Shown here: positions 1,053 through 23,068 of the stretch, one piece after another | Layout of the letters: each line of letters begins with the position of its first letter | Numbering within the stretch: position 1 is the stretch's first letter | Virus record (IMG/VR): IMGVR_UViG_3300020477_000140 | Span: 1-23,068 of that record | Direction: 5' to 3' (one strand) | Length of the DNA: 23,068 nt | DNA from: a virus | The notes under the pieces: generated by a model | What the model saw: the letters and a program-made list of their open reading frames with translations, nothing else | Told to the model about the DNA's origin: nothing | The model's database searches: none | Translations under genes and position numbers: made by a program

Positions 1053-2329
1053 ATGGCTACACCTACCAATACAGTCATTGAATCAACGCGAGTAAATCGC
1101 GAAGAGTCAGTGCAAAATGCTATTAGGGATATAAGCCCCCTAGACACCCCAATGTTAACAATGGCTAAGGAAATCAAGCTGACGGCAAGATACAGCGAGT
1201 TCTTGACAGACTCACTTGCTGCAGTTGACGCTTCCAACGCCCACCTTGATGGTGACGATGACACAATCGGCGCAAGCCCGGCTGTTACTCGTTTGGCTAA
1301 CAGAACGCAGATCGTTAAGAAAACAGCGTCTGTTTCTGGAACCACTGAGGCAGTTAACCTTTATGGTACAAAATCAGAATTAGCGTTTATTTGGAGCGCG
1401 GCTGCGTAGCAATACGCAGTAAAAAATATCCCGTGAATTGCTGGGAAGCCTAAGTCGTTTGATAAGGTAATCAGCAGCCAAGCCCTGCGGGGAAGGTTCA
1501 CAGACTATCCGAGAGGAGTACAGCTCAAGTGAGCTGGAAGCGCGGGACACCCTACTGGGGTGATGATATAGTCGCGTCTAGCTAGAAATAGTTAGCACAG
1601 TTTATTCTGTGGCTGCGGTCTAACGAACTGCGGTTAAGGAAAAAGGTTATTTTAAAACAATAACTTAACGACCAAATGGCTAAACGCTCGAAGGAGCTAA
1701 AGCGAGACATGGAAACGATAATGATGGGCAAGCAGGCATCGACTGCCGGCTCAGCATCTGTCGCTGCCCAGCTCGGCTCTTTACAGGGCTACATGAGTGC
1801 TTCAATCGGCAACATTAAATATGCTGATGCGAAGGGCTCAGCTACCACACCCGGCTGGAGTGCCGGCAACACTGGCGCAATTGTAGATCCGTCTGCAACT
1901 GCGGCTTTTACTGAAGACATGTTCAAGGATCTCGTTAAGACCTGTTACGACAATGGGGCAGAAAACGCTGATGTTTTAATGGTGGGTTCCTTTAACCGTC
2001 AGAAGGCAAGTGGCTTTACTGGAATTGCCGATTTATACCGCGAGACAGGTTCCAAGCCGACAGCTTCGGTGCTCGGAACCGCGAGTGTGTACATTAGCGA
2101 CTTCAGCGGCCCAAGCGGCATTAAGATTGTAGCTAACAGGTTCCAGTCATCTGATGTTGGAATGCTTGTTGATATGGACATGGTCCAAGTTGGTTTCTTA
2201 AGACCGTACACAAGCTATGAATTAGCTAAGACTGGTGACTCCACCGCTCGCAGCATCGTGGCTGAATTTTCAATATTGCCGATTTCGCCCGAGGCGCACG
2301 GTAAGATTGTAGGCTTAACAACAGCCTAA
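1053..2329 (+). CDS. Major capsid protein, gene split by a group I intron (exons 1053-1386 and 1671-2329)
   Basis: The two open frames 1053-1409 and 1664-2329 are exons of one gene. Joining base 1386 to base 1671 creates a split Tyr codon (T|AC) and gives the continuous motif SELAYQMAKRSKELKRDME, a conserved segment of the DUF5309/SU10-like family of HK97-fold capsid proteins. The product is 330 residues, normal for that family. Exon 1 carries the N-terminal arm (ESTRVNREESVQNAI, then SPLDTPMLTMA). Exon 2 carries the rest, including a segment around ADVLMVGSFNRQKASGF and the C-terminal RPYTSYELAKTGDS. GGAG lies 11 bases before the start. Without splicing, translation would stop at the TAG at 1407-1409 and give a 118-residue fragment lacking two thirds of the shell protein. 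A strong terminator follows. The gene call and join are well supported; the exact family name is from memory. Confidence 0.9.
1387..1670 (+). ncRNA. Group I self-splicing intron, ORF-less, subgroup IA-like
   Basis: All core helices can be drawn. P1: exon GCGU 1383-1386 with GCGC 1396-1399, placing the U-G pair at the 5' splice site. P2: CTGCGT 1402-1407 with ACGCAG 1414-1419. P3: 1429-1435 with 1541-1547, seven pairs. P4: TGCTG 1439-1443 with CAGCA 1472-1476. P5: 1448-1451 with 1465-1468. P7: GACTAT 1503-1508 with ATAGTC 1568-1573, a perfect match that includes the classic ATATAGTC element. P8: 1548-1552 with 1558-1562. An extra hairpin, CAGCTC 1521-1526 with GAGCTG 1531-1536, sits between P7 and P3, as in phage subgroup IA introns. 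P9: 1578-1583 with 1590-1595, followed by two more hairpins. The last intron base is G1670, as expected. At 284 nt it is small and has no homing endonuclease inside. Confidence 0.93.
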
Positions 2330-2381: not shown

Positions 2382-2726
2382 ATGGAAAAATGGCGACCGC
2401 TCGACGAAGATAATACAAAAGTGGAGCTGTTTTGGTATGACGACGAAACACAGACTCAACACGTTAAAACCGTCTATAAGCATACCGACGTTATTTTGGA
2501 TGCGAATAAATCCATCCAAGGTAACCAAGCCGGGAGAGATGCAGAAAACCATTTCTGGGAAGTTGCACGCATACCGCCGAGCATACAGCATCTTTGGCTG
2601 CAGGAAGGGTTAGACATATATAACCGCGAACACGGTGACCGGCTGATGAAAAAGCTTGATGACCCAGAGTGGAAATATCTCAGAGTCCAAACTGGTCGTA
2701 TTGGCAGACGCTCAGGTCACATATGA
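2382..2726 (+). CDS. Conserved small phage protein, unknown function
   Basis: A 114-residue acidic/aromatic protein, probably cytoplasmic or a minor virion part, with no signal or membrane segment. The end (LDDPEWKYLRVQTGRIG) and a middle HFWEVARIPPSIQHLWLQEG recall small proteins encoded next to head genes in other podoviruses, which have no known function. The start has a good AGGGAG site 11 bases upstream (2368-2373 against ATG 2382). It is the first gene after the capsid terminator. Its stop overlaps the start of the next gene (ATGA at 2723-2726), so the two are probably translationally coupled. Confidence 0.75.
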   Translation: MEKWRPLDEDNTKVELFWYDDETQTQHVKTVYKHTDVILDANKSIQGNQAGRDAENHFWEVARIPPSIQHLWLQEGLDIYNREHGDRLMKKLDDPEWKYLRVQTGRIGRRSGHI

Positions 2727-4033
2727 ATTTAATTGAACAGCTAGACGAGGAATTAGCGCTTAATGTTGACAACTGGCAAGCAGCCGTAAAACTTGGCGCA
2801 GCGTATCTTAAACTCGGCAACCTCGGACACGCATACGCATTTCTTAGCCAAGCGGTTGGCATTGAACAGAACGAATTTACGTTAAATGAAGCAGGCCGTG
2901 TTTACGCGGCGATGGGGCGTTGGAACGAGGCTCTGCAATTCTACGAAGCAGCAGCAAAGAAGAATCCGAAAAACGTACAGGCGGCAAATAACGCTGCACT
3001 AGCGCATCTTAATATTGGCGACCATGACAAGGCTGCAGAATGGCTCATAAGGCCATTTGCCAAAATGACTAAAGACGAATACGAAGCAGCTGACACACGC
3101 GAGCTGGACTGGAACTGGGCATTTGTACATCTAGCCCGGGGTGATTACCGCAAAGGCTGGGAAGCGTGGAACAAAGGCGAAGGCCACGGCGATCGAGTTA
3201 AGCGTCATGCATACGCCCCCAGGTGGATGCCGGGCGACAGCGGCGATGTCGTTTTTTACGGTGAGCAGGGACTGGGCGACCAGATCATGTTTGCCGAGTG
3301 TTTGTATGATGCAATTGGAGATGTGAAAAAAGGTGCAGTGGTCGAAGTGGATGAGCGCCTAGCCAATCTGTTTCGACGCAGTTTCCCCGAAGCAAGGATA
3401 ATGGGAACATTAGGCAATGAGCAGCCCGGCTGGAGAGCTCCCGGCAATGCTGGTTCCATTCCGCTTGGATCACTGCCGCTTTATTATAGGCCGTCAGCTG
3501 CGAGTTACAGAGGCCACCCTTATTTATTGGCTGACCCGGAGCGTCGATTAATGACGCGAGCTCTTCTCGGCTCGTTAGGCAAAAAACAAAAGATAGGTAT
3601 TAGCTGGACCGGGGGATTACGACACACTGGTGCGATGGCGCGGAGTGTCGAGCTGAAAAAACTGATGGCGAGTTTCAAACGCATCGACGCTAAGTTTGTT
3701 TCGCTTGAACATACACATTTTGAAGATACAGAACAGCACGCCGTCAAAGCGTTTGATTATATTACTGGCAGGTCACTTGACTACGACAACACAGCGGCGC
3801 TCGTAAGCGAGCTGGATCTTGTTGTCAGTGTGCCGAATACAGTTGTACATCTCGCCGGAGCTCTTGGCGTACAGACACTGGTGCTCGGATCGAAATCGCC
3901 GAGCTGGTGTCACACGGTTATGAATATGCCGCTCTATAAATCGGTTGAGGTTATGAATGATTGGACGCCTGCAACGGCTGCTAAACGCATAAAGGAAAAG
4001 TTGAATGGCATTGTCAAATTACGGTCAGCTTAA
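2723..4033 (+). CDS. TPR-repeat protein with glycosyltransferase family 9-like domain
   Basis: The 436-residue protein has two parts. Residues about 1-120 form three or more tetratricopeptide repeats (for example GRVYAAMGRWNEALQFYEAA and NNAALAHLNIGDHDKAAEWL). From about residue 178 it has a GT-B-like region: FYGEQGLGDQIMFAECLYD in the N-lobe, KIGISWTGG near 290, and DLVVSVPNTVVHLAGALG near 365-382, which matches the C-lobe of ADP-heptose-type transferases. Proteins joining TPR to this domain are known in bacteria and in some marine phages. I chose ATG 2723 (ATGA overlap with the preceding stop) over an in-frame ATG at 2669 deep inside the upstream gene. Substrate and target are unknown: it may glycosylate virion proteins or host surface polysaccharide. 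Its seat between capsid and adaptor genes favours a virion-linked role, which is inference. Confidence 0.82.
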   Translation: MNLIEQLDEELALNVDNWQAAVKLGAAYLKLGNLGHAYAFLSQAVGIEQNEFTLNEAGRVYAAMGRWNEALQFYEAAAKKNPKNVQAANNAALAHLNIGDHDKAAEWLIRPFAKMTKDEYEAADTRELDWNWAFVHLARGDYRKGWEAWNKGEGHGDRVKRHAYAPRWMPGDSGDVVFYGEQGLGDQIMFAECLYDAIGDVKKGAVVEVDERLANLFRRSFPEARIMGTLGNEQPGWRAPGNAGSIPLGSLPLYYRPSAASYRGHPYLLADPERRLMTRALLGSLGKKQKIGISWTGGLRHTGAMARSVELKKLMASFKRIDAKFVSLEHTHFEDTEQHAVKAFDYITGRSLDYDNTAALVSELDLVVSVPNTVVHLAGALGVQTLVLGSKSPSWCHTVMNMPLYKSVEVMNDWTPATAAKRIKEKLNGIVKLRSA

Positions 4034-16842: not shown

Positions 16843-19485
16843 ATGGCACTAAGAGACGAATACGGATTAGCGCCAGTAGGTCTGCTTGGAACCCGGCCAG
16901 ATATGATTAGCGTGAACCAACAACTGCTCGGCGTTAATGTACCCGGTCACGCTGCTCACATGGCTGGCTACATGATCCCCGGGACAGGGTTCCTTGATTC
17001 TTTAGGTTTTATGCCGGCAGGCCCCGGTATCAAGGGGAGATTCGGGCCGTCATTGTTAGATAGCATTCGGAACCAAGATTATGCTTATGCGCTTGGTCAA
17101 GGTCTAGGTACGGTTGGCGATGTTGCGCATGTGGCTGGAGCTGCAACAATGTTCCCGCCTTTAATCGCTGCAGGCACGATGATTAAAATGATGTCAAATC
17201 CTTTGCGTGCCACAAAGAACATATCCAGAGGTGTGACTGGCGGTGGTAAAACACCTGACACAAACAACATTTTAAAATCTGAGTCTTTTGTTGATAATCC
17301 AACAACGCCCGGCCCTGTACAGCCGTCTGCTGTCGAGCCGCAACCCGGCTTTAGTGACATACGAATGGGCGACCCGGTAGGCGATCTTGTCTCTGGTCAA
17401 AAACCTATTCGAGGCCAAACGGATAAAGAGCTGGTTGCTATGCAGCGAGCAGAGTTATCACCGAAACAATTAGAAAAAATAAATGCACTAAAAACCACAC
17501 ACCCATCTGTTTATAAAGCCAGTCGATTTATGTTGCCTGGCGAGGTTACACAATTGATAGGGTCACAGAAAAACATTGAAGCAGCTGAACGGTTGTTAGA
17601 TGTTTTACCGCCAGCCAAGGAAATGACAGCACTTGGCAAAATGGGCGGTGCTAAACGAGGATGGTATCGCGCATCTACTCAAGCGCTCGTTGATGTATTT
17701 GGCGACGATGCGCCAAGGTTTGCTGCTTTGTTAGCTGCAACGTCACCGCAAACATCCGTAGAATCTAATTTAATTAATTCGCTTAATATTTGGAAAAACT
17801 GGACCGCTGCCGGTAGACCAACTAGCAGGGAAAAAATTCTCGACGTTATGGGTGACAGCGTGCAGGGAGAAAAAGGACGCGACTCAATATTAGGTGCGTG
17901 GGAAAACAATACGGTCAACGCACTGTCTACTGCCAACCCGGGGGACATCAAATTATCTCTTGGTGATATAAATTTATCAGGGGCGAAGGTCGATAGTTTT
18001 ATGGCTAATCTGTCAGACGATGTTTACCGTTTTACAAACGATGCTTGGATGGCAAATACGTTAGGCGTCAAACAAAGTTTATTTCAGGGCGGCGGCAAAG
18101 GACCACCTGCATATCATGTTGTTTCTGCGTATGGCAGACAAGTAGGTAACTCTATTGGGCTAACGCCAAGAGAGATGCAAGAGACAGCGTGGACCGCTGG
18201 TATGGCATTATTAGAGGGCGCTAAGAGTAGAGGCATCCCGGTCACTGAGATGGTAGACAAGCTCTCACGTAAGGATATTTTGGCGACCCCGGATTTTGCA
18301 ACGCTGTTCCAGATGCCTGAGTACAGAGGCGTTTTGTCCGATGCTGGTTATGGAGATAAGGTCAGCAAATTAAAAGAGTTCAATTTTCCACCTGATCAAC
18401 CGCTAACAAAGGCTGAAAGAAACGCTGCATTGAAAGCAGCTCAGCGTCTAGAGGAGCTGGCGCAGATCCGAAAAGCCGACAGTAATGTTAAAACATTAAC
18501 GATGAAAGATTACGAAGCAGTTGTTAATAATATTTTTGAGGCTGTTCCCGGAAGATCTACTGGGGTACTTAGTGGTTTGGCAGATGCACCAGACAACGTC
18601 AGAAAAAATTATTCGCAACAAGCTTTTAAAGCAATGACTGACCCTAGGGGCGTAGATATTTTAAATAAAGGTGTTGGTCTAGACACTGGAAGAACATTGC
18701 GTGGTCAAGGTATGTACATTGATGACACTGGTGTGCCTCAGTATAATCCATCTGCCAATGCGCCAACCGTTTCTCAATTGACGCGATCTGGTAATCTTAC
18801 AAAAGCTGACCAAGATCGATTGCAGGCAGTCGCTAATTTAAGGGGTGGCCTTTTGGCGCAAGAAGGAACGCCTATCAATGCCATTCAACCTGACCCCAAA
18901 GGGGTAGAGAATATAATACCGAGGGATAAAGGGGCTGGCGTTCAGCCTATGATGGATACGGCAAGTGTTCTACCGCCAAATTATGCGGCTACAGACACAG
19001 GGAAAGGTATTGGTTTGTTAGATATTAGCGGAGATACCCCAGAACAATTACCGCAAGGAACTGTTAAAAAAATCACTGGGTTATTGCAGGCAGATCAGAA
19101 GAACCCATTACCGCCTGTCACAGTTGATAGAGTGTTTGGTGATTATATCGATTATACAGACGAATTTGCTCAGGGTGTTGGCAGTCAGGCTGTAGTTAGA
19201 AAAATGTTTAATGTGCTTAATAAGCTACCTAGTAAAGTTTTCAACAAGCTTGACAATAATCAGACGCGGTTAATGGCTAAAGATTTACATGACCTCAATG
19301 AAAAAACCGCCGCCAAGAACAATCTACCTTTGAGAGAAGATCATCAAAATATGCTGAAGATCATCTATGAAAAAGGATTGAAAGGCTTGAAGGCGGCGGT
19401 CGGTACGAAAGAATTATTGCCTTCTATTTTTGTGATCGGGCTTGGCGCGAAACTTTTCCAGCAACATTCTGGATCGGATTCATAA
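16843..19485 (+). CDS. Putative internal/DNA-ejection protein 3, with HhH-GPD-reminiscent domain
   Basis: The longest gene here, 880 residues. Residues about 10-130 are Gly/Ala/Pro-rich with hydrophobic stretches. A clear globular domain spans about 215-480: RGWYRASTQALVDVFGDDAP, then FAALLAATSPQTSVESN (near 293), SGAKVDSFMANLSDD (near 380) and FTNDAWMANTLG (near 396). The K-x-x-x-F-x-x-N-L...T-x-D-x-W-M pattern recalls a domain seen in phage and large polyvalent proteins and is distantly like HhH-GPD DNA-glycosylase architecture; a catalytic role is unproven. The C-terminal ~200 residues are helical. GAGGTGATG gives a ribosome site near ATG 16843. Its last 62 bases overlap a gene on the other strand. 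Confidence 0.7.
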   Translation: MALRDEYGLAPVGLLGTRPDMISVNQQLLGVNVPGHAAHMAGYMIPGTGFLDSLGFMPAGPGIKGRFGPSLLDSIRNQDYAYALGQGLGTVGDVAHVAGAATMFPPLIAAGTMIKMMSNPLRATKNISRGVTGGGKTPDTNNILKSESFVDNPTTPGPVQPSAVEPQPGFSDIRMGDPVGDLVSGQKPIRGQTDKELVAMQRAELSPKQLEKINALKTTHPSVYKASRFMLPGEVTQLIGSQKNIEAAERLLDVLPPAKEMTALGKMGGAKRGWYRASTQALVDVFGDDAPRFAALLAATSPQTSVESNLINSLNIWKNWTAAGRPTSREKILDVMGDSVQGEKGRDSILGAWENNTVNALSTANPGDIKLSLGDINLSGAKVDSFMANLSDDVYRFTNDAWMANTLGVKQSLFQGGGKGPPAYHVVSAYGRQVGNSIGLTPREMQETAWTAGMALLEGAKSRGIPVTEMVDKLSRKDILATPDFATLFQMPEYRGVLSDAGYGDKVSKLKEFNFPPDQPLTKAERNAALKAAQRLEELAQIRKADSNVKTLTMKDYEAVVNNIFEAVPGRSTGVLSGLADAPDNVRKNYSQQAFKAMTDPRGVDILNKGVGLDTGRTLRGQGMYIDDTGVPQYNPSANAPTVSQLTRSGNLTKADQDRLQAVANLRGGLLAQEGTPINAIQPDPKGVENIIPRDKGAGVQPMMDTASVLPPNYAATDTGKGIGLLDISGDTPEQLPQGTVKKITGLLQADQKNPLPPVTVDRVFGDYIDYTDEFAQGVGSQAVVRKMFNVLNKLPSKVFNKLDNNQTRLMAKDLHDLNEKTAAKNNLPLREDHQNMLKIIYEKGLKGLKAAVGTKELLPSIFVIGLGAKLFQQHSGSDS

Positions 19486-19672
19486 GTCGTTTTCTGATAT
19501 CCTTCTCAACGTCCGAGGGTGGTTTGCGCCACCGCCATAACGAGAAGTCTCCTATCAGAGCCTCGCCAGTGTCTGGGTCAGTAAACTCAACCGTCAAAAA
19601 GTATTCGTCTTTATAGTCATAGGTGACGCTATCTTTTTCAAAATCTACGATTTTAGGGGATGGGTCATACAT
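19424..19672 (-). CDS. Small acidic antisense-oriented gene, unknown function
   Basis: The only likely gene on the - strand. The 82-residue product (MYDPSPKIVDFEKDSVTYDY..., then FTDPDTGEALIGDFSLWRWR) has natural protein composition. It starts from ATG at 19672-19670 with AAGGAG exactly 8 bases upstream. A -35/-10 pair lies further upstream at 19774-19746. Its C-terminal 20 codons overlap the end of the 880-residue gene, tail to tail, so expression could interfere with or be silenced by late transcription. The segment it occupies has no competing + strand gene. No domain recognised; it could be an early or lysogeny-phase small protein. Confidence 0.72.
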   Translation of the reverse strand: MYDPSPKIVDFEKDSVTYDYKDEYFLTVEFTDPDTGEALIGDFSLWRWRKPPSDVEKDIRKRLMNPIQNVAGKVSRQARSQK

Positions 19673-19745
19673 GGTTCATGCTCCTTCTTTAGTGCTTTTG
19701 GCGGGATGCCACGGCGCACAATCTAGGTTCAAATGCCGTTCCATA

Positions 19746-19774
19746 TATATAGCAATTGTGTAGAGGTTTTGCAA
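19746..19774 (-). promoter_or_regulatory. Sigma-70-like promoter candidate for the - strand gene
   Basis: On the - strand TTGCAA (19774-19769) is separated by exactly 17 bases from TATATA (19751-19746). Each hexamer matches the consensus at four of six positions. Transcription would begin near 19739 with a leader of about 65 bases before ATG 19672. The -35 box overlaps the bases just before the + strand start codon at 19775. Confidence 0.45.
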
Positions 19775-20729: not shown

Positions 20730-20995
20730 TGATTAATCCTGATCTAGACGGTGACGGCACAGTCACGGCTGAAGAATTACAGGCAGCTGACGGTCACGAT
20801 AAATTTTTAGTCCAGAAAAACATAGCGATAGCTGCGTTTGTTTTTATGATCATCCTTACTGTGGCACTCTGTACGCCAATAGTACATGAGAGCCGTGTGA
20901 CAGCGTTAAGCGGTTTGATATCCACAATGTATGTGGCCTTGGCTTCAGTGGTCGGGGCGTTTATGGGTTTCAGCGCATGGATGACTAAGAAGTGA
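20729..20995 (+). CDS. Two-TM protein with canonical EF-hand loop (holin candidate)
   Basis: An 88-residue protein. Residues 5-16 (DLDGDGTVTAEE) fill every position of a 12-residue EF-hand calcium loop: Asp at 1, 3 and 5, Gly at 6, Val at 8, Glu at 12. After a short linker come two transmembrane helices, about 31-50 (NIAIAAFVFMIILTVALC) and 60-84, with a short basic end (WMTKK). Two helices and this size fit class II-type holins. It overlaps both neighbours by 1-4 bases in the lysis cassette. A calcium-binding N-terminus could tie membrane permeabilisation to calcium, for example after seawater or periplasmic calcium enters; that is inference. It could also be an antiholin or a membrane sensor. 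Confidence 0.75.
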   Translation: MINPDLDGDGTVTAEELQAADGHDKFLVQKNIAIAAFVFMIILTVALCTPIVHESRVTALSGLISTMYVALASVVGAFMGFSAWMTKK

Positions 20996-21393
20996 TCAAC
21001 CTGCTTGGCTCACTTGTCCAGCCTGTCACCGGGCTGCTCGATAAGTTTATCGAAGACAAAGATCAGAAGAACCAGCTCGCCCATGAAATATCGACAATGG
21101 CTGAGCGACACGCCCAGGAGCTCGCCAAAGGGCAGCTAGAGATCAATAAGGCCGAGGCTCAAAGCAGAAATATTTTCGTCGCTGGTTGGCGTCCGTTCAT
21201 TGGATGGACCTGCGGCGTAGCAATGGCATACAACTATGTAATCCACCCAATAATGATTTTTGTACTAGCCCAGCTGGACTATCTAGTAGCCCTGCCTGCA
21301 TTAGACCTTGGCGAAATGATGCCTGTATTGATGGGTATGCTCGGCCTTGGCTCGCTAAGAAGCTTCGAGAAATATAAAGGCATAAGTAAATGA
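20992..21393 (+). CDS. Holin, 3-TM gene-transfer-agent type
   Basis: A 133-residue protein starting at GTG 20992 (GTGA overlap with the previous stop). Residues 1-60 form an amphipathic helix (LLDKFIEDKDQKNQLAHEIS). Then come FVAGWRPFIGWTCGVAMAYN, a hydrophobic segment at about 82-100, and LGEMMPVLMGMLGLGSLRSF with EKYKG. The AGWRPFIGW...LGMLGLGxxRxxEKxKG pattern is that of the GTA-type 3-TM holin family. It would permeabilise the inner membrane so that the lysozyme coded next can reach the wall. It overlaps the lysozyme gene by ATGA. Confidence 0.88.
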   Translation: MINLLGSLVQPVTGLLDKFIEDKDQKNQLAHEISTMAERHAQELAKGQLEINKAEAQSRNIFVAGWRPFIGWTCGVAMAYNYVIHPIMIFVLAQLDYLVALPALDLGEMMPVLMGMLGLGSLRSFEKYKGISK

Positions 21394-21803
21394 ATATCGA
21401 AACAGTCACCGATATGCTCATTGTAAATGAGGGCATGGTGTTACACGAATACAAAGACCACCTCGGCTATTCGACTATCGGGGTGGGTCGATTAATCGAA
21501 GAAGGTATGGGTGGCATCACCGAAGAGGAAGCAAAGTATCTTTTAGCTAATGACATTCAAACAGTGTGTGACCGGCTCGATAGTAAGTTTACCTGGTGGC
21601 GCGATCTATCCGAGAACCGGCAGCACGTTATGATCGACCTGTCATTTAATCTGGGGAATCGGTTGGATAAATTTGTAAACTTTTTGGCGAACATGGAAGC
21701 AGGTTTATATGATGCAGCTGCATTCCATTTGATGGATAGCTTATACGCCAAACAGGTAAAGGGGAGAGCAGAAAGAAACGCAGATCTTATCCGGGGGGGA
21801 TGA
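21390..21803 (+). CDS. Endolysin, T4-type lysozyme (GH24)
   Basis: A 137-residue muramidase that hydrolyses peptidoglycan glycan strands. The catalytic triad spacing of T4 lysozyme (Glu, +9 Asp, +15 Thr) is kept exactly: Glu14 in NEGMVLHEYKD, Asp23 and Thr29 in GYSTIGVGR. The C-terminal lobe includes RQHVMIDLSFNLG and KGRAERNADLIRGG, typical of the family. It has no signal peptide, so release should depend on the holin. It is slightly shorter than T4 lysozyme (164 residues), mostly at the C-terminal end. Start by ATGA overlap with the holin. Confidence 0.93.
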   Translation: MNIETVTDMLIVNEGMVLHEYKDHLGYSTIGVGRLIEEGMGGITEEEAKYLLANDIQTVCDRLDSKFTWWRDLSENRQHVMIDLSFNLGNRLDKFVNFLANMEAGLYDAAAFHLMDSLYAKQVKGRAERNADLIRGG

Positions 21804-21804
21804 C

Positions 21805-21966
21805 ATGGAAGGAGTTTCGTGGGTTGACCTATTCAACTTGGCGCTTGGAGCATTTGCCGTGATCGGGGCCATTGTTTATAGTCTGATTCGTCAAAAGGTC
21901 GATATTGAACACATGAAAAAACAGATCACCCAGTTATTTGACCTCTGGAATAGCCGGGATAAGTAA
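21805..21966 (+). CDS. 53-residue one-TM protein, possible lysis accessory
   Basis: A short gene after the lysozyme (1-base gap), reading MEGVSWVDLF then a membrane helix (NLALGAFAVIGAIVYSLI) and a charged helical end (VDIEHMKKQITQLFDLW). One TM followed by a coil is the layout of small inner-membrane spanin subunits, but the coil is short for that role and no outer-membrane lipoprotein partner is visible. A run of G just upstream serves as a weak ribosome site. It is the last gene before the attachment region. Confidence 0.65.
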   Translation: MEGVSWVDLFNLALGAFAVIGAIVYSLIRQKVDIEHMKKQITQLFDLWNSRDK

Positions 21967-22009
21967 TTTGTACAAGGATTCGGCAAGTTTTTTTGAAAAA
22001 GGTAGCTAA

Positions 22010-22078
22010 GTGTCTGATAATAAATGGAGAATAGGTATCGATATCGGTGGGACCTTCACCAACATCAGCTATTTCTAA
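22010..22078 (+). pseudogene. 5' fragment of a host HyuA-type hydantoinase/oxoprolinase gene (possible att core)
   Basis: From GTG 22010 the sequence reads MSDNKWRIGIDIGGTFTN, then ISYF and a TAA. RIGIDIGGTFT is the N-terminal phosphate-binding motif of HyuA/5-oxoprolinase family enzymes, about 690 residues when complete; only the first ~17-18 codons are here, then the match stops abruptly (Asp usually follows GTFT; Asn is present). A GGTAG sequence lies upstream of the GTG. It sits between lysis genes and integrase, as an attP core would. After integration the phage would supply start codon and leader to the host gene. A chance match over 17 codons in frame with a start is very unlikely. Confidence 0.75.
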
Positions 22079-22082
22079 AACA

Positions 22083-22111
22083 CTCTCATAGCTTCTCATA
22101 AACCCTCATAG
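22083..22111 (+). repeat. Arm-site-like direct repeats, cluster 1
   Basis: Three copies of YYCTCATAR start at 22083, 22093 and 22103 (CTCTCATAG, TTCTCATAA, CCCTCATAG), exactly 10 bases apart. One copy per helical turn puts them on the same DNA face, as expected for arm-type sites bound by the N-terminal domain of a tyrosine integrase. Confidence 0.8.
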
Positions 22112-22166
22112 CCTATTAAGTTATTGATATCAGTACACAAATCAAGATGGGCTGTTTTATCATACA

Positions 22167-22194
22167 TTCTCATAGTTTCTCATGAATTCTCAAT
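22167..22194 (+). repeat. Arm-site-like direct repeats, cluster 2
   Basis: TTCTCATAG, TTCTCATGA and TTCTCAAT begin at 22167, 22177 and 22187, again 10 bases apart and in the same orientation as cluster 1, 84 bases downstream of it. The third copy diverges after TTCTCA. Probable second set of integrase arm sites. Confidence 0.78.
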
Positions 22195-22248
22195 TATTTT
22201 AAAAATTTGTACAAGAATGTGTCATGACCCCTTGTAATCCGAATACCG

Positions 22249-22300: not shown

Positions 22301-22480
22301 ATGAACACAGTACCAACCCCACTAATCAACGAGTTAGAAAAACTCACACAATTAGAAATCGCCCTCGATGCTTTGTGTAAGGTTGCTAAGAGAGAGATTT
22401 TCGTCGCTTACCCACACGACAACGATGCAATAGCACCTTACTTAATTGAGGAAATCAAAAAGACAGTAGAACTTTTATAA
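22301..22480 (+). CDS. 59-residue protein, unknown function
   Basis: A short gene starting at ATG 22301 with an excellent GGGAG site 8 bases upstream. It encodes NTVPTPLINELEKLTQLEIA then YPHDNDAIAPYLIEEIKKTV, mainly helical, soluble and acidic. It ends just before a terminator-like hairpin. It lies between attP and the integrase, so a regulatory or excision role is possible from position; nothing recognisable supports it. Confidence 0.65.
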   Translation: MNTVPTPLINELEKLTQLEIALDALCKVAKREIFVAYPHDNDAIAPYLIEEIKKTVELL

Positions 22481-22524: not shown

Positions 22525-22872
22525 ATGACAAAAAGAACTTTGACCTACAAGAAAAACGGTTATGACATAATCGGATACTTCTCGGGTGTTGGCGAAGATC
22601 GAAAAGCCGAGATTTGGTCTAAGCCTTATGGTGAAACTGATCACGTTTATTGCGGCATGATATACAAGGGGCTTACTTCGTCACATGGCACAGAGCGAGG
22701 CTGCGGTTCTACCTGGACAACTAAGAATGATGGAACAGGAGAAGATTACGCTCTTAGATGGTTCGAGGCCGCGAGGAAACTAAAGCGTAAAAGAACATGG
22801 AAAAGCGGAGACCCTACTCTTGTAGACCGCGCACGAAAGACGTTGTTGAAGATGCATGGGAGCGTAAAGTAA
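22525..22872 (+). CDS. Basic protein coupled to integrase, unknown function
   Basis: A 115-residue protein, pI clearly basic in its second half (ARKLKRKRTWKSGDP, RARKTLLKMHGSVK). The N-terminal half looks beta-rich (YDIIGYFSGVGEDRKAEIWS). AGGGAG lies 9 bases upstream of ATG 22525. Its TAA overlaps the integrase ATG (TAATG), so the two are likely co-translated. A basic small protein in this place could be a recombination directionality factor, but no helix-turn-helix of the usual excisionase type is recognised. Confidence 0.65.
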   Translation: MTKRTLTYKKNGYDIIGYFSGVGEDRKAEIWSKPYGETDHVYCGMIYKGLTSSHGTERGCGSTWTTKNDGTGEDYALRWFEAARKLKRKRTWKSGDPTLVDRARKTLLKMHGSVK

Positions 22873-23068
22873 TGGCACAAGTAATGACACAAGCAAAGTT
22901 TGACAGCCTCAAGCCAAAAACTAAGCCGTATCGGGTAGCTGTCGGGCATAACGTGTGGGTGAACATCACACCCACCAACTTCAAAACTTTTATCTATCGT
23001 AAAATGAAGCACCGCAAGAAGATGGTGATCACTCTAGGGTCGTCACAAGGTATGGAGCTGCACGATGC
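22872..23068 (+). CDS. Tyrosine integrase, 5' part (arm-binding domain), runs off the window
   Basis: The visible 65 residues contain AKFDSLKPKTKPYRV, then VWVNITPTNFKTFIYRK and KKMVITLGSSQGMELHDA. This is the N-terminal arm DNA-binding domain (DUF4102-like) of P4/lambda-type tyrosine integrases: K-P-K-x-K-P-Y...V-x-x-x-x-x-K-x-F-x-Y-R...LGS. It would recognise arm sites such as the repeats upstream. The catalytic Arg/His/Tyr part lies beyond the window. ATG 22872 has GGGAG 9 bases upstream; an in-frame ATG at 22884 is an alternative. Confidence 0.87.
   Translation, partial: MAQVMTQAKFDSLKPKTKPYRVAVGHNVWVNITPTNFKTFIYRKMKHRKKMVITLGSSQGMELHD

Follow-up and report, generated by a model that had tools for sequence, protein, structure and literature searches.

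A putative phage attachment site containing the 5' end of a hydantoinase/oxoprolinase (HyuA)-type gene

The segment 22010-22078 of the analysed stretch of DNA, an IMG/VR record covered in its entirety (23,068 bases; hereafter the window), is probably the attP core of a temperate, marine, podovirus-like phage, which would insert into the 5' end of a hyuA-type gene of its host and rebuild this gene in frame. That the window contains an attP with a hyuA 5' end as its core is, judged from the sequence, near certain. The fragment is embedded in the elements expected of an attachment site (Table 1), and it was also detected in related phages.

Table 1. Features in and around the putative attP of the window
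Feature	Position	Strand	Remarks
Holin	20992..21393	+	phrog_3427; left flank
Lysozyme	21390..21803	+	PF00959; left flank
53-aa ORF	21805..21966	+	last gene before attP
Arm-type repeat 1, AATTTGTACAAGGAT	21965..21979	+	81 bp left of overlap centre
Shine-Dalgarno-like AAAGG, weak	21998..22002	+	before GTG; anti-SD duplex -4.1 kcal/mol
IHF-like TAAGTGTCTGATA	22007..22019	-	1 mismatch from consensus; exact consensus in L004 (6614-6626)
HyuA-like 5' fragment, GTG to TAA, VSDNKWRIGIDIGGTFTNISYF and stop	22010..22078	+	translation, motif, PF05378
Left core-type arm ATATCGGTG (predicted)	22041..22049	+	top-ranking inverted-repeat register of window for a 7-nt spacer, 7/9
Predicted 7-bp overlap GGACCTT	22050..22056	+	GGACTTT in L002 and L004; TGATGTA in L003
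Right core-type arm CACCAACAT (predicted)	22057..22065	+
TCTCAT repeats, block 1	22072..22108	+	10-bp steps
IHF consensus TATCAATAACTTA (predicted site)	22117..22129	-	exact consensus at +107 from GTG position in 4/4 phages
TCTCAT repeats, block 2	22156..22192	+
Arm-type repeat 2, AATTTGTACAAGAAT	22204..22218	+	co-oriented; 158 bp right of overlap centre
Small ORF between attP and int	22301..22480	+	without family
Small ORF between attP and int	22525..22872	+	without family
Tyrosine integrase N-terminus (arm-binding domain)	22872..23068	+	first 65 residues, ended by contig edge; DNA 97% identical to L002 int

The HyuA-like fragment and the attP architecture

The GTG of the fragment is directly preceded by an in-frame TAA, and the frame runs to the TAA at its end. 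The translation corresponds to the first ~17 codons of a HyuA-type gene, including a leader of about the right length. The extreme N-terminus of hydantoinase/oxoprolinase A proteins is recognised by its signature IGIDIGGTFT, and the pattern [IV]G[IV]D[IV]GGTFT occurred once in the window (6e-8 expected; absent from 200 shuffles). The profile PF05378 (Hydant_A_N) aligned from its position 1 with the 22-mer of the window (E 0.012) and also detected the fragments of the related phages L002 (E 0.046) and L004 (E 7.5e-4). Because the fragment is so short (22 residues), the score of 15.8 bits in the window stays below the gathering cut-off of 25.2, and those of L002 and L004 are likewise below it. 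As a sequence match, the RIGIDIGGTFT motif at the gene start fits the N-terminal region of PF05378, which applies to the fragment alone and not to a HyuA protein. A chance resemblance, as might be suspected from the short length and the sub-threshold Pfam score taken alone, can practically be dismissed in view of the expected number of motifs and the occupation of the homologous place in three phages; the recurrence in the relatives refutes it.

For comparison, six annotated HyuA-type genes located on alphaproteobacterial plasmids were used. Four of them fit the strict motif pattern, and the motif starts at residue 7-11 (N-termini, for example, MSDRYRIGIDVGGTFTD and MAQHSYRIGIDIGGTFTD), so that the leader length in the phage is natural. 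The hyuA of Bosea shares 27 of 30 bases with the phage, including an exact match of the predicted 7-bp overlap; nothing links Bosea to the phage. The similarity to HyuA also extends to [WY]-R-I-G, codons on the left that lie outside the core arms and that the core site of an integrase would not need. To the right, it stops at about 22060-22063; the codons that close the fragment (NISYF and stop) are phage-specific. The sequence-only reading had proposed that attP carries the start codon and first codons of a HyuA-type gene, which is borne out by the motif, PF05378, the repeats, the symmetry of the core and the IHF site; of the extent it had assigned to this gene, the GTG-led 5' end is retained, and the end has to be moved back by the phage-specific codons.

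Judged by its sequence, the region has the properties of an attP, namely an adjacent tyrosine integrase gene, arm repeats on both sides, inverted core arms and a predicted IHF site. Since phage sequence is present on both flanks of the fragment, the site represents an attP rather than the junction of a prophage. When the window was scanned for inverted arms flanking 6-8 bp, a single clear optimum emerged, ATATCGGTG-GGACCTT-CACCAACAT (22041-22065), whose arms are imperfect inverted repeats. The same register ranked first in L002, shared the first rank in L004 and came close to it in a third relative, L003, despite its differing sequence; thus, the predicted core of all four phages has a common register, a 7-nt spacer and 6-7 of 9 matched arm pairs. 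Furthermore, the window, L002 and L003 each have two copies of the 15-nt repeat AATTTGTACAAG, placed at -81 and +158 relative to the centre of the overlap. The arm repeat of L004 differs and is doubled, at about -77 and +164, and the spacing of the arm repeats amounts to 239-240 across the four phages. The right side of attP additionally holds, at 10-bp steps, 4 of the 5 plus-strand TCTCAT copies of the window.

The HyuA-like ORF of 22 codons might also be a peptide or leader gene of the phage itself, which merely resembles HyuA and is no integration core. In three phages, this ORF does have a start and a stop, and a weak ribosome site precedes it. This explanation is nevertheless very improbable, because the symmetry centre of attP and the arm spacing fall within the ORF, precisely this part is replaced in L003, and the match covers the most conserved segment of HyuA at its natural position.

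The integrases of L003 and L004, which are available in full length, match Phage_integrase (PF00589), and L004 also encodes HTH_17 (xis-like) and repressor-like HTH genes. The presence of integrase, HTH_17 and repressor-like HTH genes in the relatives fits a temperate lifestyle. That the host is marine is deduced from an earlier finding and from the marine look of the phage kin of the relatives, and not from a host match.

Proposed junctions and the start of translation

Strand exchange would take place at about 22050-22056, within the GGTF codons; the joined product would be of phage origin as far as about 22056 and would continue with the host gene, beginning at the GGTFT codons. In the lysogen, the remaining hyuA would thus follow in frame on the late-gene side, which comprises the lysozyme gene, the 53-aa ORF, the weak ribosome site, the GTG and about 13 codons, and HyuA could still be produced in full length, its N-terminus being slightly altered. 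The predicted attR consists of AATTTGTACAAG...GTGTCTGATAATAAA joined to a long hyuA. At attL, the host hyuA start would be joined to TNISYF with its stop and to the TCTCAT repeats, followed by the integrase operon. A junction constructed in silico with a real hyuA having the same overlap was in frame from the GTG (VSDNKWRIGIDIGGTFTDIV...). With the crossover at the overlap, translation of hyuA should begin at a start provided by the phage, and the promoter of the host hyuA should face the integrase operon. All four phages have a conserved in-frame stop (TAA/TGA; 22076-22078 in the window) immediately behind the core, and this stop would end a host-started peptide at this other junction.

The signals for translation are less distinct. 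The duplex of the putative ribosome site with the anti-SD sequence was calculated as -3.4 kcal/mol in L002, -6.2 kcal/mol in L004 and +2.2 kcal/mol in L003. Sites as good as AAAGG precede 20% of the ATG/GTG codons in the window, and for the window and L002 the range is 20-27% of background sites. The ribosome site of L004 is fair; those of the window and L002 are unremarkable. A promoter scan of the 43 bases from the last gene of the lysis region to the GTG revealed nothing convincing, so that the transcription which the sequence-only reading expected the phage to provide is unproven.

L003, which lacks the HyuA core, has likewise retained the sequence TAAGTGTCTGATA that surrounds the GTG. As the start region overlaps this IHF-like motif, its conservation can be explained without translation and is not clean evidence; it had been considered as proof of selection on the start codon, and this was dropped after the IHF match was found. 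The third base of the GTG falls in the free spacer of the motif. Taken together, selection on the start codon itself is weakly supported.

These observations bear on a further explanation, according to which the core matches hyuA, and the start and the upstream codons are incidental. Integration would then disrupt hyuA, and the conservation on the left would reflect binding of IHF and integrase together with a past capture from a host. This would agree with the near-IHF sequence in L003, the weak ribosome site of the window and the absence of a promoter just upstream. It is less easily reconciled with a frame that is open and in register from the GTG through the core in three phages (window, L002 and L004), with the [WY]RIG coding similarity outside the core arms, and with a GTG that lies in an unconstrained spacer and was lost in L003 only. 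An incidental start is thus rather unlikely. Regarding the reconstitution of hyuA in frame, the evidence tips slightly towards a use of the phage start in the lysogen. The earlier proposal that the host gene is cut near its start and rebuilt with phage-supplied initiation is supported in part, since the geometry of the junction in silico, with a left half from the phage bearing the GTG and a right half from the host, would restore hyuA in frame; the weak Shine-Dalgarno sequence and the overlap of the start with an IHF-like motif speak against it.

A reciprocal exchange of expression signals can be proposed with little confidence. In this case, hyuA would gain the ribosome site, the GTG and upstream transcription of the phage, and the hyuA promoter would read into the integrase operon after a short peptide that terminates at the conserved stop (22076-22078). 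If true, lysogeny would retune a catabolic enzyme of a marine bacterium, and the expression of the integrase would be tied to a host promoter.

Related phages and the search for the host

The region is common to the window, L002, L003 and L004, and no more than these four phages are known. The HyuA fragment is retained in L002 (VSDNKWNIGVDVGGTFTNISYL and stop) and L004 (VVDSKYRIGVDVGGTFTDVSYF and stop) with many synonymous changes. When base changes were placed randomly in a permutation, fewer amino acid changes than random were found for the two wider pairs (P about 0.02 each) and the closest pair gave P 0.12, the pairs not being independent. A core that does no more than follow the host gene would produce the same synonymous bias.

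L003 agrees with the window on the right side, but its core is another one, GTA stands in place of the GTG, and a ribosome site is missing. Nearby genes of the window and L003 are about 84% identical, whereas the left arm and the core show 46-53% identity; this drop indicates that a block was exchanged. The attP of L003 (6621-6689) probably targets a different gene. In addition, the integrase of L002 (7315-8001) is a mosaic. Its arm-binding domain is 98% like that of L003 and 39% like that of L004, in line with the arm repeats common to L002 and L003. The core-binding part is somewhat nearer to L004 (83%) than to L003 (75%), in line with the HyuA core common to L002 and L004. With three integrases compared, it is suggestive only that the integrase domains track the parts of attP. 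L003 and the mosaic integrase of L002 offer a small natural experiment on how integrase domains and attP parts may change jointly with the target.

A 32-mer and a 27-mer of the core, used to look for attB by exact matching, had no match in 84,980 species genomes, so the host gene expected by the sequence-only reading was not recovered by exact matching. No lysogen, attL or attR was seen either, and we therefore infer the target gene from the fragment. It might be argued that the phage now integrates elsewhere and that its HyuA core is left over from a previous host, as host switching through a change of attP would predict. The missing match in the exact searches and the exchanged core of L003 fit this idea, and the adaptation of phage attP to new sites is documented (PMC8649754). 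The arms and overlap of L002 and L004 are still symmetric, though, and the synonymous variation is host-like and shows no decay, which makes a relic improbable.

Searches of viral contigs with the integrase yielded L002, L003 and L004 alone, and motif scans of viral contigs detected a truncated HyuA start only in phages of this group. Three contigs with long HyuA-type genes (L025, L031 and L036) had no integrase junction upon inspection of their ORF lists, and no HyuA fragment was present in 50,697 named phage records.

Comparison with known integration systems

At tRNA genes and icd, attP sites that restore the target gene mostly replace its 3' end; the phage described here differs in bearing a 5' end with a start codon. 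The principle is shared, as an attP may bring a replacement piece that preserves the function of the split target gene, and tyrosine integrases need identity mainly over about 7 bp (PMC10111431). The HE-PICI attP also resembles the present site, with two co-oriented arm motifs flanking the crossover at -81 and +132 (PMC10111431), here at -81 and +158, and L004 also has doubled half-sites. The motif, the target and the type of element are all different.

Integration at a 5' end, regarded as unusual in the sequence-only reading, has precedents. SpyCI islands of Streptococcus pyogenes integrate in the 5' end of the protein-coding housekeeping gene mutL and alter its expression; they normally silence mutL, and in one strain an island-encoded promoter rescues it (PMC3430984, PMC4689407). 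There, a repair operon of a Gram-positive bacterium is affected, whereas the phage would target a catabolic enzyme gene and has an in-frame replacement start within attP. In Escherichia coli, HK022 integrates between torS and torT, so that torS is cut off from its native promoter and is driven by a phage promoter (PMC6814406). A host gene is likewise split from its own promoter by the prophage, but the torS coding sequence remains intact and int adjoins torS. In the phage studied here, the coding sequence itself would be cut, hyuA would adjoin the side of the lysis genes and not int, and no convincing promoter was found. The strategy as such is therefore known; the new aspects are the hyuA target and, if the proposed junction is correct, the in-frame replacement start. 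Our literature search retrieved no report of a hydantoinase as integration target.

Studies of how phages influence the metabolism of their hosts usually look at genes carried by the phage; in the present case, it would be the attachment site that determines how a catabolic gene of the host is started. The tag of 17 codons could be used to seek lysogens in marine metagenomes and single-cell genomes.

Some features outside the attP region were also observed. A group I intron (Rfam RF00028, 103 bits, E 3.5e-26) at 1377-1595 (+) interrupts the major capsid gene, which is split into an N part from 1053 and a C part from about 1664 to 2329. A TPR-repeat protein is encoded amid the head genes (2669-4033) and is an unusual cargo for a structural module. 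Furthermore, a SAM-V riboswitch (RF01826, 45.7 bits) at 19678-19747 (-), with a counterpart in L004 (4349-4422), precedes a minus-strand ORF of 82 aa (19424-19672), which is without known family and runs opposite to the late genes.
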